DNA from: Sulfurimonas sp. HSL-1656 | GTDB lineage: Bacteria; Campylobacterota; Campylobacteria; Campylobacterales; Sulfurimonadaceae | Length of the DNA: 64,000 nt | Direction: 5' to 3' | Assembly (NCBI RefSeq): GCF_039645585.1 | Contig: NZ_CP147915.1 | Location: 1,550,001 to 1,614,000, forward strand | Shown here: in pieces, positions 19,826 to 50,730 of the stretch | Position numbering within the stretch: the first letter of the stretch is position 1 | Layout of the letters: each line of letters begins with the position of its first letter | Notes under the pieces: model-generated | What the model saw: only the letters and a program-made list of their open reading frames with translations | Databases searched by the model: none | Told to the model about the DNA's origin: nothing | Position numbers and translations under genes: made by a program

Positions 19826-20971
19826 TTGATTCGCAACACTCTTCTTATGATTTTTTTCCTGTTATGGCAGGGCGCCCAGGCGTCGACGACAACAGACCTG
19901 CAGGGACTCGTCACGCAGGGCCAAACCCTCAACGGCGAACTTGCGGCGTTCAGCTTTGCCCAGGAAGGATCCTGCAGCGAGCTCGGAACACTCAATACCT
20001 CTATCAAGGAGTATATCGCCTCGATTCAGATGGTGTACACCCATATCCCCTCTCCCTACTCTGTCAGTGTTGACGACCTCGACTCACTCGACAGCCTTTC
20101 CGCGATTGCCCTTCAGATGGCAAGGAACACCTTCCGCATCTCCACGGGTCTCCAAACGACCGGCAGCTGTTATGACCGTTCCAACTACGAAGTCCTGATG
20201 GCGGCGATGCTGCGCCTCTCCGACGATATCGGGACGATGGCCGACCGCATCCTCGAGATGGCCGACCGCATCCTCGTCATGGCTGACAATATCGGCATGA
20301 TGGCGGACCGTATCCTCATTACCCAGCAGCTGCAGAACAGCAATGTCCTCCTGACACAGGAGTCCGTGCTGCAGACACAGAACAATATGGTCGGTCTCAG
20401 TGATGCACTCGCACCGGACCTCTATGACGCCAAGCTTTCCGAACTGATCACGAAGAGCCAGGTCCTGGCGGATGCCATGGCCGGAACGACCCTGACGGAG
20501 TCGACGATGGACGTCCAGCTGCAACAGCTTGAAGTCAACGCCTCCAGGCTCATGATCTCTACAAAGAACCTCTACGAATGGTCCGCCAAGAACAACCAGG
20601 TCGCGGTGATCGAACCCAGCGCAGAGACCCTGACGATGTTCGGCGACCTCTCCCAGATCCACCAGAACATGGGCAGCAGTCTTCAGACGTTCGCCGCTTC
20701 CATCGAAAACCTCTCCGATCAGACCGATTCGGACGTTCTGAAAGCGGCGATCGCCAGCATGCTGAAGCTCAGCTACGACATCGGCACCATGTCAAACCGT
20801 ATCATGGAGATGTCGGACAAGATCATCGTGATGGCCGACAACATCGGTATCATGAGCGACCGTATCCGTCAGACCCAGGAGCTGCAGCAGGGGAGTTTTG
20901 AGACGATGTTTCACTCCATGTTCAGCGCACAGAGTTCCATGATCACCCTTTTCCAGTCCATGAATCCCTAA
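19826..20971 (+). CDS. secreted heptad-repeat protein 1
   Basis: 381 residues from TTG 19826 (AAAGGA eight bases upstream) with a signal peptide MIRNTLLMIFFLLWQGAQAS. Two copies of a module of about 64 residues occur at 127-190 and 311-374. Each opens with MLxLSxDIGTM and continues as consecutive seven-residue units: M138ADRILE, M145ADRILV, M152ADNIGM, M159ADRILI, then TQQLQ. Met/Ile at 4-3 spacing with Asp/Arg elsewhere predicts a long amphipathic helix or coiled coil. The next gene is a paralogue 9 bases later. I do not recognise a named family; a helical envelope or membrane-active protein is possible. Confidence 0.82.
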   Translation: MIRNTLLMIFFLLWQGAQASTTTDLQGLVTQGQTLNGELAAFSFAQEGSCSELGTLNTSIKEYIASIQMVYTHIPSPYSVSVDDLDSLDSLSAIALQMARNTFRISTGLQTTGSCYDRSNYEVLMAAMLRLSDDIGTMADRILEMADRILVMADNIGMMADRILITQQLQNSNVLLTQESVLQTQNNMVGLSDALAPDLYDAKLSELITKSQVLADAMAGTTLTESTMDVQLQQLEVNASRLMISTKNLYEWSAKNNQVAVIEPSAETLTMFGDLSQIHQNMGSSLQTFAASIENLSDQTDSDVLKAAIASMLKLSYDIGTMSNRIMEMSDKIIVMADNIGIMSDRIRQTQELQQGSFETMFHSMFSAQSSMITLFQSMNP

Positions 20972-20980
20972 GGAGGCACC

Positions 20981-22147
20981 GTGAAGACATTCAAAAACCC
21001 GTTTAAACCCCTGATGCTCCTCGGCGCCCTGCTTGCCGTATCGCTCCCGCTCCATGCGGCGCTGCTGACCGACCTGCAGACCGCCAACACGAATGCCGGA
21101 AGCTTCAAGAGCCAGCTTGAAGCGATCAACCTCGGCAGCGACAGCGTCTGCGCACCGCTGCTGCAGGCAAACAATGCGGCGCGTGACCTCGTCAACGAAA
21201 TCAGCCGTATCGACGCAAGCCTTGCCGCCCCGCTGCAGGTGGATGCAGACGTGCTGACGGCGCTGGATCAGTACACCCTGACGGTCCTGGGCCTCGCCAA
21301 TGAAGCACTGCACCTCTCCACAGACCTCCAGATGCTCTCTTCATCCATGAACGCTGCGACCCTCGGTGACGGCATCACGGCGATGCTCAGGCTCTCGGAC
21401 GATATCGGGACGATGGCGGACCGCATCGGCGAGATGGCGGACAAGATTCTGATCATGTCGGACAACATCGGCCTGATGGCCGACCGCATCCTCGAGACCC
21501 AGCAGCTGCAAAACGACAACGTCGCGCTCACCCAGTCCACCCTCCTGCAGACACAGAAGAATATGCTCGCACTCGTCTCGGTGATGCAATCCGACAGTTT
21601 CAACAACGAACTGGAGGGGCTGAAATCGAGCGGTGACTTCCTGGCGCAGCGTATGGAGGCCGTCAGCCTGACGCCGTGGACGATGTCCATGGAACTCGAA
21701 GCGGTCTCCTGGGATGTGCATCAATACCGGGGCGAAGTCGAATCCGTCTACGCCAACGTCACGGCAAATACGGTGCATAACAGCCTTTACATCAGTGCCG
21801 ATACGCTGACGGATCTCGGCAACCTAGCCGTGATGCTCCGTTCGCTTTCGACGGCTGTCGACGGCTATGTCACCGCGATCGGCGGCATGGCGTCCATGAC
21901 CTCCGACCCGACACTCTATGCCTCGCTCAAAAGCATGCTGCAGCTCTCCGCCGATATCGGCGTCATGGCGAACCGTATCCTCGAAGAGGCGGACGTCATC
22001 CTCGCGATGGCGGACAATATCGGGCTGCAGGCCGACCAGATCGTATCCACACAGCAGTCGATGAACATCAATATCGCCGCCGTTCAGGGCGCGATCCTCG
22101 CTGCACAGCAGATGGCGATCCCCCTCTTCGCCCAACGGGGACTTTGA
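20981..22147 (+). CDS. secreted heptad-repeat protein 2
   Basis: 388 residues from GTG 20981, preceded by AAGGAGGCACC. The signal peptide ends about residue 26 (LLAVSLPLHA). It has the same two-module plan as the protein encoded just upstream: 135-198 (LSDDIGTMADRIGEMADK ... DNIGLMADRILETQQLQ) and 318-380 (LSADIGVMANRILEEADV ... DNIGLQADQIVSTQQS). Only one cysteine (C57). Tandem gene duplication on top of internal duplication gives four copies of the module here. The function is unknown; joint secretion suggests a hetero-oligomer. Confidence 0.82.
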   Translation: MKTFKNPFKPLMLLGALLAVSLPLHAALLTDLQTANTNAGSFKSQLEAINLGSDSVCAPLLQANNAARDLVNEISRIDASLAAPLQVDADVLTALDQYTLTVLGLANEALHLSTDLQMLSSSMNAATLGDGITAMLRLSDDIGTMADRIGEMADKILIMSDNIGLMADRILETQQLQNDNVALTQSTLLQTQKNMLALVSVMQSDSFNNELEGLKSSGDFLAQRMEAVSLTPWTMSMELEAVSWDVHQYRGEVESVYANVTANTVHNSLYISADTLTDLGNLAVMLRSLSTAVDGYVTAIGGMASMTSDPTLYASLKSMLQLSADIGVMANRILEEADVILAMADNIGLQADQIVSTQQSMNINIAAVQGAILAAQQMAIPLFAQRGL

Positions 22148-26565: not shown

Positions 26566-26919
26566 TTACGCTGCCGTAATGCGGAACTGAGCCATAGAGT
26601 CGAATTTCTTACAAAGGGCCATAGTCTCGTCGTCTGCAGCATCGAGACGCTTGGAGAGCTCTGCAATTTGATAGCGGTTTGTATAGATCATGTAATCAGA
26701 CTCAGCCGTCTTGGCATAGTGCACAAGCGCTTTGAACATGAACGTATCTTTGTTCGTATAAGAAAGCTCTTCTTTTTGGCCTTCGCGGCTTTCCATGAGC
26801 ATTTTAATTTCGCTGACGCTGTCGAAATCGACGCCTGCATTTTCCAGTTTTTCAACAACTTTTTCGTCCGGGATTGTATTCCCCATATCTGCCGGGAAGT
26901 GGAAACCAAGAATAAACAT
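26566..26919 (-). CDS. 117-aa protein between nifH and nifD
   Basis: The product begins MFILGFHFPADMGNTIPDEK and is helical and acidic, with DEETMALCKKFDSMAQFRI near the end and a single cysteine. It has a good ribosome site (AAGGAGAATTATT). It is not a PII-like NifI protein (no T-loop) and I do not recognise it. Its position inside nifH-x-nifD, 48 bases before nifD, and the same T-ending codon bias as its neighbours make it a nif structural-operon accessory. A role in nitrogenase assembly, protection or control is inferred from position only. Confidence 0.82.
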   Translation of the reverse strand: MFILGFHFPADMGNTIPDEKVVEKLENAGVDFDSVSEIKMLMESREGQKEELSYTNKDTFMFKALVHYAKTAESDYMIYTNRYQIAELSKRLDAADDETMALCKKFDSMAQFRITAA

Positions 26920-27020: not shown

Positions 27021-28007
<987 letters not shown>

Positions 28008-28199
28008 CTAAAAAAGTCTGACAACAATCGGAAAAATGTACAAATTTGTAAGAATAGGATTTGCAGCAGCCCCGACATTTTGTCGCAAAACGCTGCAAAG
28101 CACCTATTCATGGGGCTTTGAGGGGATTTACTACTGAAAGGAATTCTCAAAATCAGGAAGGAGATACGGGCTTCAAAATTGTCGCAAATAGGATAAAAA

Positions 28200-28217
28200 T
28201 TGTCGCAGGTGCGACAA
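28200..28217. promoter_or_regulatory. NifA-type upstream activator palindrome
   Basis: TTGTCGCA-GG-TGCGACAA is a perfect palindrome and contains TGT-N10-ACA, the known NifA upstream activating sequence. It lies about 225 bases upstream of the nifH -24 element, within looping distance. Two more TTGTCGCA half sites lie at 28080-28087 and 28179-28186. No nifA gene is in the window, so the binding protein must be encoded elsewhere. Confidence 0.65.
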
Positions 28218-28225
28218 AAAGCATG

Positions 28226-28248
28226 AAAGGCCCCAAAACAGGGGCTTT
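28226..28248 (-). terminator. terminator of the nifB-to-LRR operon
   Basis: The minus strand reads AAAGCCCC-TGTTTT-GGGGCCTTT five bases after the stop of the LRR-GNAT gene, followed by CATGCTTTTT. The stem is strong with one bulged G. Confidence 0.7.
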
Positions 28249-28253
28249 GAAGC

Positions 28254-29762
28254 TTAAAAATTATTTTTAAAATGAAAGACGGTGAGATTGGTGCGGCGGA
28301 AGCCGCGGCGGGTGTAGAAGTTATGGGCGTTTTCATTGTCGATATCCGCGGCAAGCTGAATCCGTTTGTAGCCGTATGACTGTGCCATAAAGCGCATTTT
28401 GTTGATGAGCCGGCTGCCCACCCCCATCTTGCGGTACTCCTGGCGGACGACCAGGTCTTCGATCTGGCCGACATAGTCGCCTTCGGCACTGGAGATGAGG
28501 CGCTGCATCGTCAGCATCCCGACCACTTTCCCCTCGTGCCGCGCGACGAGCAGGTCGGTACCCTCATGGCCGTAGAGTTTCGTAATCCCGGAGAGCTGCT
28601 TGTCGAAGTCGATCTCGAAATCCTGCTCGATGGCGAAGAGCACCCCCAGCAGTCCGGCCATGTGCGGCAGATCCTCCTCCGTGGCAGCCTCGATAGTGAT
28701 GCCTGTCTTCATATTGATGTCGCAGATCTCCGGGTGGAGCACTTCGATGACCAGTTTCGCATGCTCATTGAGCGGGTTGTCACCGATATAGAGGGAGTTC
28801 AGGCTCTTCATGTTCGCCAGCTCCTCCGGCAGGTCGACAATGGCGTTGCCGTCGATATCGAGTTCGTACAGCTCCGTATAGCGGCTGATCGTCTCCGGCA
28901 CGTCGGCAATCGCGTTGGAGGAGTAGCACAGTGACCCCAGGGAGGTCGATGGCAGCATCGGAAACGCCGTCAGCCCGCAGCCGTCACAGGAGAAGGCGCG
29001 AAGATAGGGGGCGAAATCATCCGCAATTTGCAGTGATGAAAGCGCGTTGTCGTCCAGCGTCAGCACTTCAAGCTCCTCCAACCCGTGCAGCGTCACCTCC
29101 TTGATGCGGTTCGAGGCGAGGTTGACCGATTCGACCCCGAGGGTGAAAAAGGCTTTGTCGATCGTTTCGATACGGTTGTCCGAGAGCTCCAGTTCCAACA
29201 GCGAACTGAGGTATGTCGCCTCCGGGGGGATCCTTGTGATCAGGTTCCCCTCCAGGTTCAGCCGCTCGACCGACGTGAGCTGGGCCAGCATGGCGGCAAT
29301 ATCTTTAATGTAATTGCCGGCGAGGTTGAGGGTGCGCAGCTCATTGGGAACGCTCAGGCAGTTGTCGAAGCCCTCGAGCACGTTGCCGCTGAGATCAAGC
29401 ACACGCAGCATCGTGAAACGGACCAGCTCACTGACGGCGCTGATACGGTTGCCGCTGAGGTTGAGTGAACGGATCGGCAGTGCCCCCAACAGTGCCGGGA
29501 CGGCCGTGAAGGCGTTACGACGAAGGTCCACGTTGCTCAGTCTCATCATCGACGCCATGGACTCGGGCAGCACGGAAAGTTTGTTGTTGCCCAGGTTGAG
29601 CGCGACCAGTTCGGTGAGCAGGCCGAAACTCTCGGGCAGACTCTGCAGCGCGCGGTTGCTCAGATCGAGACGTTTCACCTCGGCAGGCGTTTTGACTTCC
29701 GGTACGATGGCCCGCTGCGCCATCAGCCAGGCACGCAGGGACTCCCATTGCGGTTCGGACAT
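28254..29762 (-). CDS. leucine-rich-repeat / GNAT acetyltransferase fusion
   Basis: 502 residues in two parts. From about residue 28 to 335 there are some twelve leucine-rich repeats (LTELVALNLGNNKLSVLPES, IRSLNLSGNRISAV, LRVLDLSGNVLEGF, VERLNLEGNLITRIP and others), giving a curved binding surface. From about 352 to 500 a GNAT N-acetyltransferase domain carries the acetyl-CoA motif VRQEYRKMGVGSRLI and the C-terminal AHNFYTRRGFRR. It is the last gene of the unit that begins with nifB, 2 bases after the 88-aa gene. A protein-modifying acetylase whose target is chosen by the repeats is a reasonable guess; the target is unknown. Confidence 0.88.
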   Translation of the reverse strand: MSEPQWESLRAWLMAQRAIVPEVKTPAEVKRLDLSNRALQSLPESFGLLTELVALNLGNNKLSVLPESMASMMRLSNVDLRRNAFTAVPALLGALPIRSLNLSGNRISAVSELVRFTMLRVLDLSGNVLEGFDNCLSVPNELRTLNLAGNYIKDIAAMLAQLTSVERLNLEGNLITRIPPEATYLSSLLELELSDNRIETIDKAFFTLGVESVNLASNRIKEVTLHGLEELEVLTLDDNALSSLQIADDFAPYLRAFSCDGCGLTAFPMLPSTSLGSLCYSSNAIADVPETISRYTELYELDIDGNAIVDLPEELANMKSLNSLYIGDNPLNEHAKLVIEVLHPEICDINMKTGITIEAATEEDLPHMAGLLGVLFAIEQDFEIDFDKQLSGITKLYGHEGTDLLVARHEGKVVGMLTMQRLISSAEGDYVGQIEDLVVRQEYRKMGVGSRLINKMRFMAQSYGYKRIQLAADIDNENAHNFYTRRGFRRTNLTVFHFKNNF

Positions 29763-29764
29763 AG

Positions 29765-30031
29765 TTACTCTCCTTCCGCCAGACGGCGTAGCCGCTCGAG
29801 GCGCTGTTCGATCAGGTGTTCAATCTCTTCAAAATCGTACGTACCGAACTGGTTCATGTCGTACAATTTTACCAGTGCCGCACGGCAGCAGCTCTTATTG
29901 CATTCGGTCACCAGTTTTTTCGCTTTTTTAAATGGGAGGGAGGTGTTTTGAAAGATGTCGATAGCCTCGGCGACATTTTTTTCGCCGCATTCGCAGATCT
30001 CCATCTGGAGAATCTCTTCTTTACTGCGCAT
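29765..30031 (-). CDS. 88-aa cysteine protein, BFD-like [2Fe-2S] candidate
   Basis: The product has C13-x-C15 (MEICECGEKNV) and C44-x3-C48-C49 (TECNKSCCRAAL), a layout close to the C-x-C ... C-x2-C of bacterioferritin-associated ferredoxin-like [2Fe-2S] domains but with one extra residue and a third cysteine in the second pair. The C-terminal 30 residues are helical and charged. It lies inside the nifB-nifV accessory operon, so it may carry iron or electrons for nitrogenase maturation. The cluster type is inferred. Confidence 0.75.
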   Translation of the reverse strand: MRSKEEILQMEICECGEKNVAEAIDIFQNTSLPFKKAKKLVTECNKSCCRAALVKLYDMNQFGTYDFEEIEHLIEQRLERLRRLAEGE

Positions 30032-30336: not shown

Positions 30337-30564
30337 TCAGGCCACTTTATGCACCTCGATGAGGGCGGCTTCCTCTTTGCGGAGGCCTACCAGGGTACGG
30401 TTGATCATCACCTGGACGGTACTTTTGAACCAGCCGAAATGCTTAATGCTGATCTGTGCATTCGGCATCAGGCCCATCGCCAGCAGGCGTGCGCGAAGCG
30501 CACCGTGGACATTGATGGCGTCCACCGCTGCTATTTCACCGACTTTCATCTGCAATAAACACAT
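30337..30564 (-). CDS. FeoA-domain protein
   Basis: 75 residues with the SH3-like FeoA fold: MKVGEIAAVDAINVHGALRA, LLAMGLMPNAQISIKHFG, STVQVMINRTLVGLRKEEA. Free-standing FeoA proteins assist or regulate ferrous iron transport, but no feoB is here; in nif clusters they are common and are presumed to serve iron supply. AAAGGAGCCCGAA precedes the ATG. It is in the middle of the nifB operon. Confidence 0.88.
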   Translation of the reverse strand: MCLLQMKVGEIAAVDAINVHGALRARLLAMGLMPNAQISIKHFGWFKSTVQVMINRTLVGLRKEEAALIEVHKVA

Positions 30565-30575
30565 TTCGGGCTCCT

Positions 30576-31400
30576 TTAAAGTGAAAATGCGTAAATGTTT
30601 TCGAACTTAATCGAATTGCCGCCCTTGCTCATGTGGACGAACTTCTGCTGCTGTTTGAAGTGGTACTTCTCGTAAAGATCGACAACCGGCTTCACCCCGA
30701 GGGGGACGTCGGCGAAAACCTTTTTGAGCCCCCGGAAATAGAGGACCCCTTTCATCATCTTCTCCGCTTCGTCCTCATGCCCCTCGCGTACCTGCCAGGG
30801 GCCCAGATAGACATGGCGGGCATTCACGACGCTGGAGTGCTGAAAGGCATTGGGCAGCGTGAATTTGAGCGAACTGGTGCGTTCCATCTCATCGAGCAGG
30901 AACGCAAGGCGGTTCTCGCCGAACGTTTCATGATCGATGGCATGGATGGCGGATTCGAAGTTCCCGCCGTCCAGTTCTTTGGCATGCGCATTGGTAAAAT
31001 TGAACGGCGGCACTTTGCCGACATTGATGAAACGGCCCACTTCCATGTTGGATTCAAAACCGTGGGCTTCGAAAAACGGTACGAGGTCCGGGTTGGCATG
31101 GAGGTAAATTTTGCGGAAATCGTTCTCCAGTACCCCCAGAAGCGTTTGGAAAAGGCGTTTGCCTATTCCCTTCTTCTGGTACTCCGGTCGTACCATAAAA
31201 TATTTCATCTGTGCCGTTTCGGTAAAGCCGATCGACATGATCGCGCCCACCAGTTTGCCGTCTTCGTACGCACCGTAGCAGAGGTTGGGCGAGTGCATCA
31301 TCATCAGCTTGATATGGTAACCGTCGGCAAGCCAGCCCACCGTATCAGCAATCTTGACCAGTTCAGCGACGTCTGCAAATTTAAGCCATCCTATGAACAT
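30576..31400 (-). CDS. double-GNAT N-acetyltransferase
   Basis: 274 residues. The N-terminal GNAT domain (1-140) has the acetyl-CoA loop VRPEYQKKGIGKRLFQ and then DLVPFFEAHGFE. A second GNAT-like half follows (150-274), with ARHVYLGPWQVREGHEDE and VVDLYEKYHFKQQQKF, as in two-domain acetyltransferases of the Acetyltransf_18 type. Its start overlaps the nifV stop by ten bases, so it is translated with nifV. It is one of two acetyltransferases in this nif operon; the substrate is unknown. Confidence 0.85.
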   Translation of the reverse strand: MFIGWLKFADVAELVKIADTVGWLADGYHIKLMMMHSPNLCYGAYEDGKLVGAIMSIGFTETAQMKYFMVRPEYQKKGIGKRLFQTLLGVLENDFRKIYLHANPDLVPFFEAHGFESNMEVGRFINVGKVPPFNFTNAHAKELDGGNFESAIHAIDHETFGENRLAFLLDEMERTSSLKFTLPNAFQHSSVVNARHVYLGPWQVREGHEDEAEKMMKGVLYFRGLKKVFADVPLGVKPVVDLYEKYHFKQQQKFVHMSKGGNSIKFENIYAFSL

Positions 31401-32512
31401 AGGCTCTGCCTGTAAAGAGATACGAGCTCCATGTCGTCTAGGACCTGCTTACGCGAGGTCACGATTTCGCGAATGCGCGGCAGCAGAGACTGCAGTGCAC
31501 TTTTTTCGGCGCTGATGCCGAGCTGTTTGAGATGGTACATGACCGTTCCGGTTCCCGAATGCTTGCCGATAGGGAAAGCGCGCAGCCCCCCGACCTCTTC
31601 GGCATCGAAGGGTTCGTAGGCGCGGCTGTTCTTCATCATACCGTCAGCATGGATACCGCTCTCGTGGGCAAAAAGACGCTCCCCGACAATAGGGGCGTTC
31701 GGCGCAATCGTTACGCCCGCCGCCTCGGCGACGATGGCAATGAGCGAACGCATCTGCATCGCATCGATGCGGCGCGTGTCGCCGTAGAGGTGTTTGAGCG
31801 CCATGGAGATCTGTTCGAACGAAGCGTTGCCCGCCCGTTCGCCCAGACCAATGACCGTCGTATTGACGCTGAGCGCACCTGCATCCAACCCGCTGAGCGC
31901 ATTGGCATTGGCAAGACCGAAATCATTGTGCGTATGCATTTCGATCGGAAGGAGATTGAGGGAAACCAATGCCTTGATGGCTTCGTAGGTTCGTGTCGGT
32001 GTCAGAATCCCGACGGTATCGCAGTAGCGGAAACGGTCAGCGCCGAGCGTGTGGCCCAGCTGCATTACGTCGGCAATAAAGCCAAGATCGGCACGGGAGC
32101 TGTCTTCGGCCCCGATACAGACATAGAGTCCTTCGCGTTTCGCGGCCATAATGACTGCCTCGAGCTGCGAAAGCATCCGGCTTTTATCACCGCCGAATTT
32201 AACGTCAATCAGAATATCCGAAACGGGGATGGAAAGGTCAACGGCTTTCACGCCACACTCAAGCGACGCCTCGAGATCGCGCATCGTCGCACGGTTCCAG
32301 GTCATCATCCGCGCCTCCAGCCCGAGGGCCAGCAGTTCGCGGATGTCATCCTGTTCGCGCGTTCCCATTGCGGGAATGCCGATCTCGAGTTCATCGGCAC
32401 CGCAGGCATCAAGCGCGCGGGCGATCGCTATTTTTTCACCGGTGTTGAACGCCACATAGGGCGCCTGTTCACCGTCACGTAACGTCGTGTCGTTGATCAA
32501 AGCCATTTCCAT
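31391..32512 (-). CDS. nifV: homocitrate synthase
   Basis: 373 residues of the HMGL/isopropylmalate synthase TIM-barrel family. The N-terminal INDTTLRDGEQAPYVAF carries the metal-binding Asp and the catalytic Arg; EMHTHNDFGLANANAL carries the HxH-type metal ligands; HESGIHADG is the C-terminal signature. Context with nifB favours homocitrate, the organic acid of FeMo-cofactor, over isopropylmalate. ATG 32512 and ATG 32506 are both possible starts, each with an AAGG site. Confidence 0.94.
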   Translation of the reverse strand: MEMALINDTTLRDGEQAPYVAFNTGEKIAIARALDACGADELEIGIPAMGTREQDDIRELLALGLEARMMTWNRATMRDLEASLECGVKAVDLSIPVSDILIDVKFGGDKSRMLSQLEAVIMAAKREGLYVCIGAEDSSRADLGFIADVMQLGHTLGADRFRYCDTVGILTPTRTYEAIKALVSLNLLPIEMHTHNDFGLANANALSGLDAGALSVNTTVIGLGERAGNASFEQISMALKHLYGDTRRIDAMQMRSLIAIVAEAAGVTIAPNAPIVGERLFAHESGIHADGMMKNSRAYEPFDAEEVGGLRAFPIGKHSGTGTVMYHLKQLGISAEKSALQSLLPRIREIVTSRKQVLDDMELVSLYRQSLCS

Positions 32513-32617: not shown

Positions 32618-34033
32618 TTAGTTCGCTTCCATCTCCTCGGGGAGATTGAAGTATTTGCGTGTCGCCTTGAGGACGGAAGCCTCCATCGGCTGATACGCAT
32701 AGCTCATGTCTGCAATCAGTCCCGCTTTCGCGAGGTCGTCCTGCGGACAGCCGCCGATCTTCGCTGTCAGGATCAGCTTGCAGTCTTTGAGTTTCTCAAG
32801 GATCGCATCGATCGGGTTCGTGCCGTCCGGTCCCGCACAGTACTCGTAGTCGAGTTTACGGTGGTGGATGAAGCGGATACCGCGGTCGCCTGCTTCGTAG
32901 ATAAGGAACTCTTTGACCGAACCGAAGTGCTGGTTGATCATCCCTTCGCCCGCCGTCGTTACCGCGACAAGGATGGTCTGACCGTCGGAGCTGAGGTCTG
33001 CCTTCTCTTTGCGGACACGCTCGTTTGCACGGTCGAGGAAGAAACGGAACTCTTCGATCTTCGCATGCGCTTCTTTACGGCCTTCAACATTGTAGTGTGC
33101 TTCGAGGGCATCGAAACTCATCTCTTTGAAGCGGTCTTTCGTGAATTCCGCACCGCGGTCCTCACCGATCAGACCGACGGCGTCGGCGCGGCACTGGCGG
33201 CAGTGCTGCATCAGTTTCATATCCATACCGCATGCTTCCTGGACTTCCATCTGCTGCTGATCCGTCGCAGACGGTACACCGTCAAGGGCGAATTTCGTAC
33301 CGAACTCCGGCTCGGAGATGATCGGCATGATGTTGTGGAGGAAGACACCGATCTCTTTGAGTTTCTTGGAAACTTCCGGCAGGTGCTTGTCGTTGATGCC
33401 CGGGATCAGAACGGAGTTCGCTTTGATCAGGATACCGTGCTCGACACACTTCTTCATCCCTTCGAGCTGGTTCTCGAGGAGGATACGGGACGCCTCTTTA
33501 CCGTAGATGCGTTTGTTGTTGTGGTAGATCCACGGATAGATTTTCGAACCGATCTCGCCTGTTTCGTCTACAGAGTTGATCGTGACCGTAATGTGGTCGA
33601 TGTCGTATTTCACCATTTCATCAACGAAGTTCGGCAGTGCAAGGCCGTTCGTAGAGAGACAGAGTTTCAGGTCTGGCGCTTTTTCGCGGACCATTGCAAA
33701 TGTCTTGAATGTTTTTTCCGGGTTGGCGAGGGCATCTCCCGGTCCGGCAATACCAAGAACACTCATACGCTGAACTTCACCGCCGACGAACATGACCTTC
33801 TTGACGGATTCTTCCGGTGTCAGGCGTTCGCTGGTAACCCCCGGACGGCTCTCGTTGGAACAGTCGTATTTACGGTTACAGTAGTTACACTGGATATTAC
33901 ATGCAGGTGCAACCGCAACGTGGATACGTGCGTAGTGGTGGTGGGCTCCTTCAGAGTAACATGGGTGATCGTGGACCTTTTCTGCAATATCAGCTGGCAA
34001 TGCTGATTCTGTTGGGCTTGAACCGCAGCTCAT
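32618..34033 (-). CDS. nifB: FeMo-cofactor biosynthesis protein NifB
   Basis: 471 residues. The radical-SAM cysteines are C45, C49 and C52 (VAPACNIQCNYCNRKYDC), preceded by HPCYSEGAHHHYARIH, the usual NifB entry. The C-terminal 110 residues form a NifX/NafY-type cofactor-binding domain (TTAGEGMINQHFGSVKEFLI). NifB makes the NifB-co [8Fe-9S-C] precursor. ATG 34033 has TAAAGGAGCTAAA before it and is preferred; the frame is open a further 58 codons to GTG 34207, but that stretch contains a sigma-54 promoter and is better read as leader. Confidence 0.97.
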   Translation of the reverse strand: MSCGSSPTESALPADIAEKVHDHPCYSEGAHHHYARIHVAVAPACNIQCNYCNRKYDCSNESRPGVTSERLTPEESVKKVMFVGGEVQRMSVLGIAGPGDALANPEKTFKTFAMVREKAPDLKLCLSTNGLALPNFVDEMVKYDIDHITVTINSVDETGEIGSKIYPWIYHNNKRIYGKEASRILLENQLEGMKKCVEHGILIKANSVLIPGINDKHLPEVSKKLKEIGVFLHNIMPIISEPEFGTKFALDGVPSATDQQQMEVQEACGMDMKLMQHCRQCRADAVGLIGEDRGAEFTKDRFKEMSFDALEAHYNVEGRKEAHAKIEEFRFFLDRANERVRKEKADLSSDGQTILVAVTTAGEGMINQHFGSVKEFLIYEAGDRGIRFIHHRKLDYEYCAGPDGTNPIDAILEKLKDCKLILTAKIGGCPQDDLAKAGLIADMSYAYQPMEASVLKATRKYFNLPEEMEAN

Positions 34034-34115
34034 TTTAGCTCCTTTAATAGATGTATAGGTTTGACGAACCTGACCTTGCATCATGTAGCTACAATCATAT
34101 TCTGCTGCCAATGAT

Positions 34116-34130
34116 GCAAACCCCATTCCA
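34116..34130 (-). promoter_or_regulatory. sigma-54 promoter of nifB
   Basis: On the minus strand TGGAATGGGGTTTGC followed by AT has the exact TGG-N9-TGC spacing. The predicted start near 34104 gives a leader of about 70 bases, so transcripts would begin inside the 58-codon upstream extension of the nifB frame. Confidence 0.65.
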
Positions 34131-34283
34131 GCCATTTTCCGGCCCAGAGCGCTACCACCTCCGACAATTCTTACAATTTTGTCCCCCGATGACCTCTTTG
34201 AGACCACGGCAACATTATTAATTAGTATCTCATGTAAAACCTCCCATTCTCCGCCAACGCCCGACAGTCGGGCAGCTCTTCAC

Positions 34284-34348: not shown

Positions 34349-34789
34349 ATGAAGATCGCTGTCCCGTTCAGTCAACAGCTCGAGCTCTATCGCGATAACC
34401 CTTCGACCGCCCCGAAATTCGGCATTTATGAAATTGTTATGGAAAAGAGCCGGGTCGGTATCTCACTGCTGAGCGTTGAGATGAACCCCTGGTGCAAAAC
34501 GGCGTGCGGTCTCTTTGACACCTCCTCGACCACCTGCACCTGCGACGAAGAGCGTCAAAAAGACATCCGCCACATCACCGAGCACTATGCCCTGCTTGAA
34601 GTGCTCGCCGGCTGCAGCTACCTGCTGGCCGACCGTTTCTGCGACAACACCAAACGCGCACTGACCAACGGCGGCATCCATCTGTTCAAATTCCCCTCCG
34701 TCATCCGCACGACGGAGAATGCCATCAAAAATTTCATCATAGGAGCTTCGCTTGCAAATACAGTTGAACACGTCTACTATGCGTCTTGA
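34349..34789 (+). CDS. NifX/NifB-family cofactor protein
   Basis: 146 residues from ATG 34349 (GTAAAGGAAACTCT upstream). It starts MKIAVPFSQQLELYRDNPS and has the alternating strand-helix order of the dinitrogenase iron-molybdenum cofactor (NifX/NafY) domain. It is unusual in having a cysteine-rich insert, CKTACGLFDTSSTTCTCDEE, and two later cysteines. The family binds NifB-co or FeMo-co; the extra cysteines might hold an iron-sulfur cluster. It heads a three-gene transcript divergent from nifB. It is one of four NifX-type domains in the window. Confidence 0.78.
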   Translation: MKIAVPFSQQLELYRDNPSTAPKFGIYEIVMEKSRVGISLLSVEMNPWCKTACGLFDTSSTTCTCDEERQKDIRHITEHYALLEVLAGCSYLLADRFCDNTKRALTNGGIHLFKFPSVIRTTENAIKNFIIGASLANTVEHVYYAS

Positions 34790-35261
34790 AGAGCAGCCGC
34801 TTGACATCGGATACGCTTCCGAAAAGGTCACGCTCAAAGCCCCGGACGGTACGTCACAGAGTGTCGGGGGACAGGACGGTAAGACCCATCTGATCGTTAC
34901 CGTCCCTTTTATAGATGACAACTGCATCGCCGAACTGCAAGCCATCGGCAAGGCCCTTCCGAAAGCCGACGATGTCACCGCGTCACTGATCGTCGCCGCG
35001 ACCTCCCACGAGGACCCCAAAGTCGAAGGGTTCCGCTTCCTGCTTGACAGCGACGAAGAGTTCGCCGACTGGTACGGTGTGCGCCTCAGCGGTGAGCCCC
35101 TTGACGGGGAGCTGACCAAGGCCCTGTTCATCATCTCCAAGGATGGTGCACTCTACTATGATGAATTTGCCAGGAACCTGCATGATCCGTTCAACGCCGA
35201 AACGGCCGTACGGAAAGTCTACGCTGCGCAAGAATGCTATACCGGGAAAGGATGCCACTAA
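34752..35261 (+). CDS. thiol-peroxidase-like (Tpx-like) thioredoxin-fold protein
   Basis: 169 residues from TTG 34752 (AGGAG at 34740-34744), overlapping the upstream gene by 38 bases; ATG 34779 is an alternative. SEKVTLKAPDGTSQSV then HLIVTVPFIDDNCIAELQAI matches the Tpx pattern in which SIDTGVC holds the peroxidatic cysteine, here shifted to DNC. KVEGFRFLLDSDEEFADWYG resembles the SD-pattern loop of Tpx. The C terminus ends ECYTGKGCH with two cysteines. It may remove peroxides or act as a redox partner near nitrogenase; activity is uncertain because the active-site frame is altered. Confidence 0.7.
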   Translation: MQIQLNTSTMRLEEQPLDIGYASEKVTLKAPDGTSQSVGGQDGKTHLIVTVPFIDDNCIAELQAIGKALPKADDVTASLIVAATSHEDPKVEGFRFLLDSDEEFADWYGVRLSGEPLDGELTKALFIISKDGALYYDEFARNLHDPFNAETAVRKVYAAQECYTGKGCH

Positions 35262-36127
35262 TGAGTGAAACAATGACGACAACAGAGACCAAAGACTACA
35301 GTGAACTGATCGAAACGATCAAGAAAGAGATCCGCAACCAGACGACCGTCCCCTACTTCGGGCTGGGAATCTTCAAAGGGATTACGACCAAAGAGGGCGA
35401 ACAGATGCCTTTTGACTCGGATTCGATGATTTTGATGATGAACAACGGCCGTGCCATGAGCCCGCGCCTGATGTTCGAATACTCCCGGGCCGCCATGCAC
35501 CTCGAGCAGCGCCGCGGCGTGGACTACATCCAGCAGATGACCAACTGGATCTACACCAAGGAGTTCGAACCGACGCCGCTGCACAAGGCGATCCTGAACA
35601 TGTCGCCGCGCTACATCATCGACACCAACCGCGATGCCAAGCTGCAGGAGATGCTCGCCTTCGAACCGCATACGTTTATCATCGGCAAGTCGCGCATCCT
35701 CGACAATGACTACCGCTACGAGATCTACGAGTGGGATGTCGAGAACAAGAAGTACTTCCAGGTCGACGAAGAGGCCCTCGACGACGCCCAGAAGATTCTC
35801 TTCAAACCAATGGGTTCCCCGCTGCCGGACCCGAGCTTCGTTATCTCCGACGCCGACTATGTCGACTGGCTGACCGAAGCGATGGGCGGCTATGCCGTCC
35901 CGTCCGTCCTCAAAACCTACCGCAAGACGAAAAAGTACCTCTTCATGGGGACCTATTTCGACCGCGATACCGACCGTATGGTCGCCAACGAACTGACGCA
36001 CGACCTCGAAGGGGGTTACTTCATCACCGACCAGGAACTCGGTAAAAAAGAGAAGAAATTCGTCGAGAAGCACAATCTCGAACTGATCAAGATGTCGCTC
36101 GAAGCCTTCACCGAGGCGTTTATCTAA
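35261..36127 (+). CDS. SIR2-like domain protein in nif operon
   Basis: 288 residues. Its ATG overlaps the stop of the Tpx-like gene (TAATG). The sequence TVPYFGLGIFKGITTKEGEQ near residue 30 resembles the nucleotide-binding start of SIR2_2-type proteins, followed by SRAAMHLEQRRGVDYIQQM and HTFIIGKSRILDNDYRYEIY in the middle. No zinc-binding cysteines and no clear catalytic histidine can be named, so deacetylase activity cannot be claimed. SIR2-like proteins also occur as NAD-consuming factors. Position as third gene of a sigma-54 nif transcript suggests an accessory role. Confidence 0.6.
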   Translation: MSETMTTTETKDYSELIETIKKEIRNQTTVPYFGLGIFKGITTKEGEQMPFDSDSMILMMNNGRAMSPRLMFEYSRAAMHLEQRRGVDYIQQMTNWIYTKEFEPTPLHKAILNMSPRYIIDTNRDAKLQEMLAFEPHTFIIGKSRILDNDYRYEIYEWDVENKKYFQVDEEALDDAQKILFKPMGSPLPDPSFVISDADYVDWLTEAMGGYAVPSVLKTYRKTKKYLFMGTYFDRDTDRMVANELTHDLEGGYFITDQELGKKEKKFVEKHNLELIKMSLEAFTEAFI

Positions 36128-36221: not shown

Positions 36222-36817
36222 ATGCCATACATACCTACCGTAAAAGACAGAACCCCACGGGGCGAACGCTATTTTGACCTTTTTTCCAAACTGATGGGTG
36301 ACCGTGTCATCATGATCACCGAACCGATCGACGACCACATGATGGGGATCATCGTCTCCCAGCTGCTTTATCTCGAAGCCGAAGATTCCGAAGAGCCGAT
36401 CCATATGTATATCAGTTCTCCGGGCGGTTCGGTGATGGCGGGTCTCGCCATCCTGGACACCATGCAGCTGATCAGCGCCCCGGTCTACACCTACGGTCTG
36501 GGCATGGTCGCATCAATGGCCGCCGTCCTCTTCACCTGCGGCGAGCCGGGACACCGCTACGTGCTCCCCAACGCCGAAGTGATGATCCACCAGCCGCTCG
36601 GCGGCGCACAGGGCCAGGCCAGTGATATCGAGATCCAGGCCAACCACATTATCAGCCTCAAAAAGCGCCTCTACAAGATCCTCTCCGAAGCCACCGGTGC
36701 ACCGGTCAAAACCATTGAGAAAGCCAGCGACCGCGACAACTATTTTGTCGCCGAAGACGCCATCAAGTTCGGTCTGGCGGACCAGATCCTCAATGCTATT
36801 ACGAAAAAGGAAGTCTG

Positions 36818-36818
<1 letters not shown>
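36222..36818 (+). CDS. clpP: ATP-dependent Clp protease proteolytic subunit
   Basis: 198 residues, normal length. The catalytic serine is in YGLGMVASMAAVLF and the catalytic histidine in EVMIHQPLGG, with the aspartate in the C-terminal third (EKASDRDNYF). It forms the heptameric double-ring peptidase in the cytoplasm. AAAGGAAACTT precedes the ATG. It overlaps clpX by one base, making a clpPX operon that is unrelated to the nif genes around it. Confidence 0.98.
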
Positions 36819-38047
<1,229 letters not shown>

Positions 38048-49751: not shown

Positions 49752-50651
49752 TTACATCAGGTAAAGGACGACATTTTTGTCGATCAGCTCCTCGAAAGCG
49801 TCGAGCAGCATATCCGCTGTCGACGTTGAACCGAGGTGACAGCCCGAACAGGCACCAAGGTAGTTCAACCAGATCTGCGGGGTCTCGCCCGGAAGGTAAT
49901 TGAGCAGCTCGATCCCGCCGCTGTCGGCTTCGAGGGTCGGGCGGATCTTCTGGTCGATCACCTGCATCACCAGCGTGATCTGCTTTTCCACCGGCAGGCT
50001 GCGGAACGGTTCGTTGCGCAGGGTCGCCAGCTCTTTGTTGCTGACATAGGTGACGACTTCCTGTGCCCGTACATTGTTATTGTGCGCGGCGGTAATCAGG
50101 TAGCGCATCGCTTCGGCCTTCTGCCCCTCTTCTTTGAGGAGCATGCCCGCTTTGAACTGGGCGTCGACATGGCCGATATCGGCGGCGGCTCTGTAGTACT
50201 GCAGCGCCCCTTTGGCATCGGGCGTACCGTCGATCCCTTTCTCATGGATCTGCGCCAGGCTCATCATCGCATGCATATTGCCGCGCTCCGCCGCTTTGGC
50301 AAACCACGTTTTTGCCGCTTCGATGTCGCGGCCGCACCCTTTACCCTGCATCGCCATGACCCCCAGGTTCACCATGGCGTTGGCATCCGCCTTTGCCGCC
50401 GAATCGACAAAGAGGTCGTAGGCCTCTTTATACTGTTTGGCCTCGTAGGCGCTCACGCCCGCTTCGAATGTAGTCATTTTCTGCTCCTCCTGATTTTGAA
50501 AATAGGCTTCGAGCCGTTCATACGCATCCTCTTCGGCCTCCTCGAAGGAGTCGCCGATCCCTTTGATCTCCGGGAAATCGACGAACTGGGCGACGCAACC
50601 GTCCCCCTCCTCGTTGGAAAAACCGAAATAATCGAGTGCATACTTTTTCAT
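49752..50651 (-). CDS. HicB-like / Sel1-repeat / NifU C-terminal domain fusion
   Basis: 299 residues in three parts. Residues 1-52 (DYFGFSNEEGDGCVAQFVDF ... GDSFEEAEEDAYERL) look like a HicB-type fold. Residues about 60-215 are Sel1-like repeats (AMVNLGVMAMQGKGCGRDIE, AMMSLAQIHEKGIDGTPDAK). The end is a NifU scaffold domain with LGACSGCHLGSTSTADMLLD, the two-cysteine cluster site. Methionine 59 (ATG 50477, with AGGAGCAGAAA before it) is a second plausible start, giving a Sel1-NifU protein. Iron-sulfur delivery to nitrogenase is inferred from the NifU domain and the context. A sigma-54 element is at 50664-50678. Confidence 0.88.
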   Translation of the reverse strand: MKKYALDYFGFSNEEGDGCVAQFVDFPEIKGIGDSFEEAEEDAYERLEAYFQNQEEQKMTTFEAGVSAYEAKQYKEAYDLFVDSAAKADANAMVNLGVMAMQGKGCGRDIEAAKTWFAKAAERGNMHAMMSLAQIHEKGIDGTPDAKGALQYYRAAADIGHVDAQFKAGMLLKEEGQKAEAMRYLITAAHNNNVRAQEVVTYVSNKELATLRNEPFRSLPVEKQITLVMQVIDQKIRPTLEADSGGIELLNYLPGETPQIWLNYLGACSGCHLGSTSTADMLLDAFEELIDKNVVLYLM

Positions 50652-50663
50652 ACCCGGCCTTGT

Positions 50664-50678
50664 GCAAAGAACGTTCCA
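50664..50678 (-). promoter_or_regulatory. sigma-54 promoter toward the HicB-Sel1-NifU gene
   Basis: The minus strand reads TGGAACGTTCTTTGC followed by A, matching TGGCACG-N4-TTGCA closely. The expected transcription start is near 50652, directly beside the ATG at 50651, so either the message is almost leaderless or the main start is the ATG at 50477. Confidence 0.75.
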
Positions 50679-50683
50679 GACAG

Positions 50684-50698
50684 TGGAACACTTTTTGC
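50684..50698 (+). promoter_or_regulatory. sigma-54 promoter toward the NifX-like gene at 50731
   Basis: TGGAACACTTTTTGC followed by AA has the exact -24/-12 spacing. The predicted start near 50710 lies about 21 bases before the ATG at 50731. Its -24 element begins only five bases from that of the opposite promoter at 50664-50678, so the two point away from each other. Confidence 0.8.
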
Positions 50699-50730
50699 AA
50701 ACATAAGCAAAAATCATCTAAGGAGGCGAC

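Follow-up and report, generated by a model that had tools for sequence, protein, structure and literature searches.

A leucine-rich-repeat GNAT fusion protein in the nifB operon of a Sulfurimonas and its nif-linked partners

Why would the last gene of an operon that begins with nifB encode leucine-rich repeats (LRRs) joined to a GNAT acetyltransferase domain? This question is raised by a locus of Sulfurimonas sp. HSL-1656, which we analysed within a 64,000-nucleotide stretch of the genome (the window; contig NZ_CP147915.1, positions 1,550,001 to 1,614,000; the coordinates below count from its first letter). The open reading frame (28254–29762, minus strand) starts with ATG, encodes 502 amino acids and contains no internal stop codons. 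Pfam finds LRR_8 in seven stretches (125.6 bits) and the GNAT family PF00583 at residues 400–488 (64.0 bits), both far above their cut-offs. Furthermore, AlphaFold2, run with 43 related sequences, predicts a single confident chain (mean pLDDT 94.5), in which an N-terminal helix and an LRR solenoid (residues ~3–345) are followed by a GNAT fold from ~350–355 to ~500. The fusion had been noticed in an earlier, sequence-only reading of this DNA, and the intact frame and the agreement of Pfam with AlphaFold2 bear it out.

The N-terminal part shows the repeated LxxLxLxxNxL units and the predicted solenoid of an LRR protein. It comes closest to scaffold-type LRR proteins, LIC10831 and SHOC2 among them, and in a fold comparison of the model, the solenoid matched the Leptospira LRR protein 4u06 with a Z of 34.4 and an rmsd of 2.1 over 333 residues. 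The LRR effector families XopAC, XopL and SlrP were rejected as an identity, as their scores lay far below the cut-offs and the similarity was one of repeats only. The C-terminal part combines the GNAT fold with an acetyl-CoA loop of the [RQ]xxGx[GA] type (RKMGVG, residues 444–449). Among 23 aligned GNAT members, the [RQ]xxGxG loop is kept by 22, and E379, E435, D436, D473, N476 and Y483 are invariant. By sequence, the domain is nearest to RimI-, PhnO- and AAC-like proteins, with no named family reaching its cut-off. It shares the fold and the acetyl-CoA loop with these N-acetyltransferases but, unlike them, it is fused to an LRR solenoid and sits in nif clusters. The GNAT domain and ClpX2 (see below) have the best conserved chemistry, and the LRR is the variable part (86% vs. 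95% identity when the window is compared with its nearest congener). The greater variation of the LRR fits the expectation for a recognition arm.

On the minus strand, the operon reads nifB (32618–34207; TIGR01290, 563.8 bits), nifV for homocitrate synthase (31391–32512; TIGR02660, 475.8 bits; both above the NCBIfam cut-offs), a double-GNAT gene (30576–31400), a FeoA domain gene that is present in only some relatives (30337–30564), a Rop-like/DUF683 nif accessory gene assigned by Pfam (PF05082; 30071–30328), p88 (29765–30031) and the LRR-GNAT gene. The gaps do not exceed 105 bp, and the only overlap, of 10 bp, is between the double-GNAT gene and nifV. A gene annotated as a "CCE_0567 family metalloprotein" takes the DUF683 position in a nif cluster of Bradyrhizobium.

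The gene p88, directly before the LRR slot, encodes a small protein of 88 amino acids with an invariant CxC...C-x3-CC pattern (C13, C15, C44, C48 and C49). It is strongly conserved, and the majority of the Campylobacterota nifB operons that we read contain it. The protein matched no Pfam family; a BFD-like [2Fe-2S] identity, to which the cysteines had pointed, was dropped as Pfam gave no BFD match. It is possibly a metal or Fe-S protein.

A GC-rich hairpin (AAGCCCC..GGGGCCTTT) lies directly past the LRR-GNAT stop codon and is kept in two congeners. Beyond it, at 28217–28200 on the minus strand, is a stem (TTGTCGCA..TGCGACAA) with a run of T, taken from a scan whose site count does not exceed that in shuffled sequences. 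Together (28200–28256, minus strand), these elements are the probable end of the nifB transcript, and judging from the sequence, it is plausible that LRR-GNAT is its last gene. The spacer from LRR-GNAT to the probable nifH ATG measures ~330 bp. Several TTTTGCGACAA-type boxes, including the palindrome TTGTCGCA-CC-TGCGACAA, occur in it (27930–28256) and are largely conserved in the two congeners; there are four exact copies of TTGTCGCA within 28080–28217, and eight in the window against 2.7 expected. We regard these boxes as a candidate operator of nifH. A strict pattern for sigma-54 −24/−12 elements gave no clear site before nifB or nifH, its two matches in the window being at chance level. Between nifH and nifD, a 117-amino-acid protein with no Pfam match (26566–26919, minus strand) is conserved in relatives.

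Is the fusion an accident of this one genome? Our whole-genome searches covered Campylobacterota, and occurrence was counted in a sample of 298 Campylobacterales genomes, 72 of them with a NifB match and 226 with no match. Full-length LRR-GNAT was found in 11 of the 298 genomes, and all 11 copies lie in nif clusters in the same slot. By score, nifB is present in 10 of the 11; in the eleventh (G141), nifB is cut by the contig end, and the end of nifB directly precedes the same gene order. LRR-GNAT is absent from the remaining 225 nifB-negative genomes. Within the Campylobacterales sample, the gene thus behaves as a nif accessory gene, with conserved nif linkage and absence from non-diazotrophs. 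With ten further genomes of the sample carrying full-length orthologues in this position, we do not consider it a chance fusion. A pattern scan of genome contigs with the window protein returned two sequences, a full-length relative and a weak LRR match; the patterns are specific to the window and have little bearing on other phyla.

Similarly, the double GNAT is present in 48 of 72 nifB-positive genomes vs. 2 of 226 nifB-negative ones, and the SIR2-like protein of the divergent operon in 64 of 72 vs. 3 of 226; these counts are descriptive, and their p-values ignore relatedness. The co-occurrence of LRR-GNAT, GNAT and SIR2-like genes in nif clusters, which the sequence-only reading had raised as a point to be checked, is thus real, and the counts support treating LRR-GNAT, the second GNAT-fold protein and the SIR2-like protein as one nif accessory set. 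In one genome (G101, contig L135), nifH, nifD, nifK, nifV, nifB, the double GNAT, LRR-GNAT, the SIR2-like gene and ClpX2 are all in fragments, a joint decay that would be expected if these genes serve one purpose. In another genome (G211; L072:10589–19900 and L116:1–4038), an intact LRR-GNAT is separated by ~8.5 kb of unrelated genes from a second copy of its GNAT end that lacks the 5' part; the arrangement looks like the insertion of a mobile element into LRR-GNAT with restoration of the 3' part.

The slot after p88 is filled in different ways. It holds the fusion in the window lineage and in family f7, and an LRR protein alone (~330–345 amino acids), the commonest form by family, in f6, f9, f15, f20 and two f1 genomes. 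A GNAT alone (~150 amino acids) occupies it in four f1 genomes, with one more on an f15 contig. Elsewhere, the GNAT is found immediately after the second ClpX gene, in the order SIR2-like, ClpX, GNAT, at eight loci in f6 (G265, G068, G195 and G184) and f9 (G070, G225, G243 and G120), the f9 loci having a 4Fe-4S ferredoxin gene next after the GNAT. In G091 and G249, a GNAT gene lies just upstream of nifB. The LRRs of all fusions form one clade of the LRR tree (support 100/100). In the GNAT tree, some branches of which have moderate support, the fused GNATs group with the slot GNATs, and the ClpX-linked GNATs of f9 fall inside the larger clade to which the fused GNATs belong, which also has a member from the nifB-negative genome G296. 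These slot forms and trees indicate that the two halves are neighbourhood partners of the same nif machinery. On the other hand, Arcobacter-like f20 clusters and several f9 genomes have the LRR with no nif GNAT nearby, which indicates that the LRR also has a role without acetylation.

The second acetyltransferase-like gene of the operon had likewise been noted before, and the gene after nifV does encode 274 amino acids with two GNAT domains; in most clusters, too, the double GNAT follows nifV. In the window copy, the N-domain keeps an intact acetyl-CoA loop (QKKGIG), and the C-domain is a weak match to Acetyltransf_18. Across 40 aligned rows, however, the N-domain loop is kept in only 20 and lost in the other 20, the losses covering all members of f6, f9 and f20, and so the loop that an active double acetyltransferase would keep is not conserved among the orthologues. 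Consequently, the idea of two active acetyltransferases as a conserved design of the operon does not hold. Relatives of the double GNAT and of p88 were found in none of the plasmid records.

Divergent from nifB, on the plus strand, lie genes for a 164-amino-acid protein, a redoxin or thiol-peroxidase-like protein (34752–35261; the first of a conserved redoxin, SIR2-like, ClpX2 order), the SIR2-like protein (35234–36127), ClpP2 (36222–36818; ~49% identical to the other ClpP of the genome) and ClpX2 (36818–38047). ClpX2 is an extra copy in the nif region. Two ClpX copies are present in 19 of the 20 nif-positive genomes tested, the exception being the Arcobacter-like G193 with one, and each of the four nif-negative genomes tested has one; we therefore describe ClpX2 as nif-dedicated. 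Among the genomes examined, ClpP2 is restricted to clusters arranged like that of the window. In 22 genomes, ClpX2 has no GNAT in its vicinity, and group g25 of f20 lacks the double GNAT, DUF683, ClpX2 and the nif GNAT together, which, in a single lineage, counts as one event. That the two halves also exist as separate genes, and that there is a link to a nif-dedicated ClpX2/ClpP2, had escaped the sequence-only reading. In Azotobacter, ClpX2 regulates the levels of NifB and NifEN (Martinez-Noel et al. 2011, cited through PMC5715403 and PMC3916325), and these two sources also place clpXP of Azoarcus under NifA control. Like that of Azotobacter vinelandii, the Campylobacterota ClpX2 is a second copy with a connection to nitrogen fixation; it differs in its coupling to the SIR2-like protein, at times also to ClpP2, and to a directly adjacent GNAT in other families.

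Could the SIR2-like protein remove what an acetyltransferase adds? That it has a SIR2 fold was confirmed, even if the Pfam match of the window protein (23.7) falls below the cut-off of 24.5. The fold is of the NADase type: the folds nearest to the model are the SIR2 domains of ThsA, DSR2 and KomC (Z 18–20 over ~240 residues), whereas sirtuin deacetylases, at a Z of ~12.5, are not the closest. The N-D motif is kept (DTNRD, N131), but the catalytic histidine of K-x-H-G that should follow it in a sirtuin is missing: the window has KPMG (190–193), which in a profile aligns with KLHG of SeThsA, and methionine or leucine takes the place of the histidine (KPMG/KPLG) throughout the alignment of 22 Campylobacterota sequences, which comprises the window protein and 21 relatives. 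Homologues occur on 72 plasmids (mostly rhizobial; Bradyrhizobium and Methylococcus plasmids are also represented), with 22–27% identity among the matches listed; the three plasmid contexts that we examined are nif clusters. In three proteobacterial homologues, the asparagine is replaced in all three and the histidine is present in two, whereas the Campylobacterota members keep the asparagine and lack the histidine. Because no aligned sequence has both residues, the protein is unlikely to be a deacetylase, and the proposal that it serves as the deacetylating counterpart of the GNATs finds no support in the Campylobacterota sequences aligned. A defence role, suggested by the resemblance to ThsA and DSR2, was set aside, as PADLOC gave one weak match and the gene tracks nifB. 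The nearest parallels are the SIR2-like proteins inside nif operons of Zymomonas (ZMO1821), rhizobia and Methylococcus, the likeness to ZMO1821 being one of nif-island setting.

What, then, might LRR-GNAT do? We tentatively favour, at somewhat less than even confidence, a nif-dedicated protein acetyltransferase that is guided by its LRR to cofactor-assembly proteins. In this view, the solenoid would bind a single Nif assembly protein or a small number of them, such as NifB, NifEN or a partner whose gene lies in this operon. The GNAT domain would then use acetyl-CoA to acetylate what the solenoid has bound, at a lysine or at the N-terminal amine. The mark may then feed into the stability and turnover of the assembly proteins through ClpX2(P2), with the SIR2-like protein beside ClpX2 acting as a degenerate, perhaps NAD-binding, partner and not as an eraser. 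The sequences themselves show the fusion and where it lies in the genome, its intact acetyl-CoA loop, the forms with two separate genes, the additional ClpX and the loss of the histidine; we infer that the substrate is a protein, and likewise which protein it would be and how it would be linked to proteolysis. The link to ClpX2 is suggested by the families in which the LRR ends the nifB operon and the GNAT directly follows ClpX2; even so, our confidence that the acetyl tag bears on turnover by ClpX2(P2) is low, and lower than that in the tagging itself. The separate-gene forms, the single LRR clade, the grouping of the GNATs, the adjacency to ClpX2 and its status as an extra copy, the conserved loop and invariant residues, the likeness of the LRR to scaffold proteins, the joint decay in G101 and the Azotobacter precedent count for a tagging role. 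Counting against it are the RimI, PhnO and AAC relatives, which include acetylators of small molecules, a substrate that cannot be read from a GNAT sequence, the LRR and ClpX2 genes with no GNAT nearby, and the lack of a clear reversal of the mark by the SIR2-like protein.

These same relatives lead to an alternative that we consider improbable though worth keeping in view, in which the GNAT acetylates a small molecule relevant in nitrogen fixation (a polyamine, an aminophosphonate or another amine), the LRR is a separate scaffold and the fusion arose from a shared cluster. The PhnO-like and AAC-like enzymes among the best named matches, and the many clusters that work with the LRR alone, would suit it; it explains less well why the fusion LRR clade is retained across two families, why LRR and GNAT are both nif-linked as separate genes and why the operon has no transporter or catabolic gene. 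A mostly structural or chaperone-like role of the LRR protein, the double GNAT and the SIR2-like protein in NifB/NifV-dependent cofactor assembly, with acetyl-CoA use being sensory (e.g., of the supply for homocitrate synthesis by NifV), seems to us unlikely. It could draw on the overlap of the double GNAT with nifV in the window, together with the loss of the loop in half of the rows, and on a SIR2-like protein without its catalytic histidine, yet in the GNAT of LRR-GNAT, the loop and the presumed catalytic residues are retained by almost every member, and a purely structural role needs neither.

The reversible nitrogenase switch of the sequence-only reading, by acetylation and sirtuin deacetylation, is the reading to which we give very little credence. 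SIR2-like and GNAT genes do co-occur, and they are neighbours across ClpX2 in f6 and f9. In Zymomonas, moreover, acetylation of NifA, NifH and NifK has been described, along with a SIR2-family gene in the nif island (PMC8600466), and acetylation in nitrogen fixation is, as a general idea, already published for that organism. Against the switch stand the NADase-type fold, the histidine replaced by methionine or leucine in all Campylobacterota aligned and the proteobacterial homologues with the asparagine replaced, two of them with the histidine.

The LRR-guided acetyltransferase could also be part of something larger, a dedicated acetyl-tag route of quality control in which the LRR arm picks NifB or another protein, the GNAT tags it and the nif-specific ClpX2(P2), with the altered SIR2-like protein, reads the tag; this extension is decidedly speculative. 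If true, it would be a bacterial set of recognition arm, tagging enzyme and protease in place of ubiquitin-like logic. NifB and NifEN are fragile, and their turnover and protection are a practical obstacle to the transfer of nitrogenase into new hosts. Should LRR-GNAT modify them, a control step that is known mainly from Azotobacter ClpX2 would gain a specific enzyme together with its recognition arm and a protease. The statement that acetylation affects nitrogenase also becomes a gene-by-gene test, for which the fusion and relocation of genes serve as natural experiments.

In the literature searched, most of it outside subscription papers, we found no description of the LRR-GNAT nif protein, of its separate-gene forms or of the GNAT, ClpX2 and SIR2-like neighbourhood. 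Other repeat proteins are known from nif regions, among them the LRR protein PST1332 of the Pseudomonas stutzeri nif island and the LRV Fe-S protein. No GNAT fusion is described for PST1332, and LRV is a different repeat with a FeS4 domain, unlike the LRR of LRR-GNAT. The window, with a G+C content of mostly 51–64% in a genome of 2.56 Mb, holds further proteins of note: two tandem proteins of 381 and 388 amino acids with repeated MADRI/MADNIG motifs and no clear Pfam family (19826–22147, plus strand), and a protein that, unusually, joins Sel1 repeats to a NifU-like C-terminal domain (49752–50717, minus strand).
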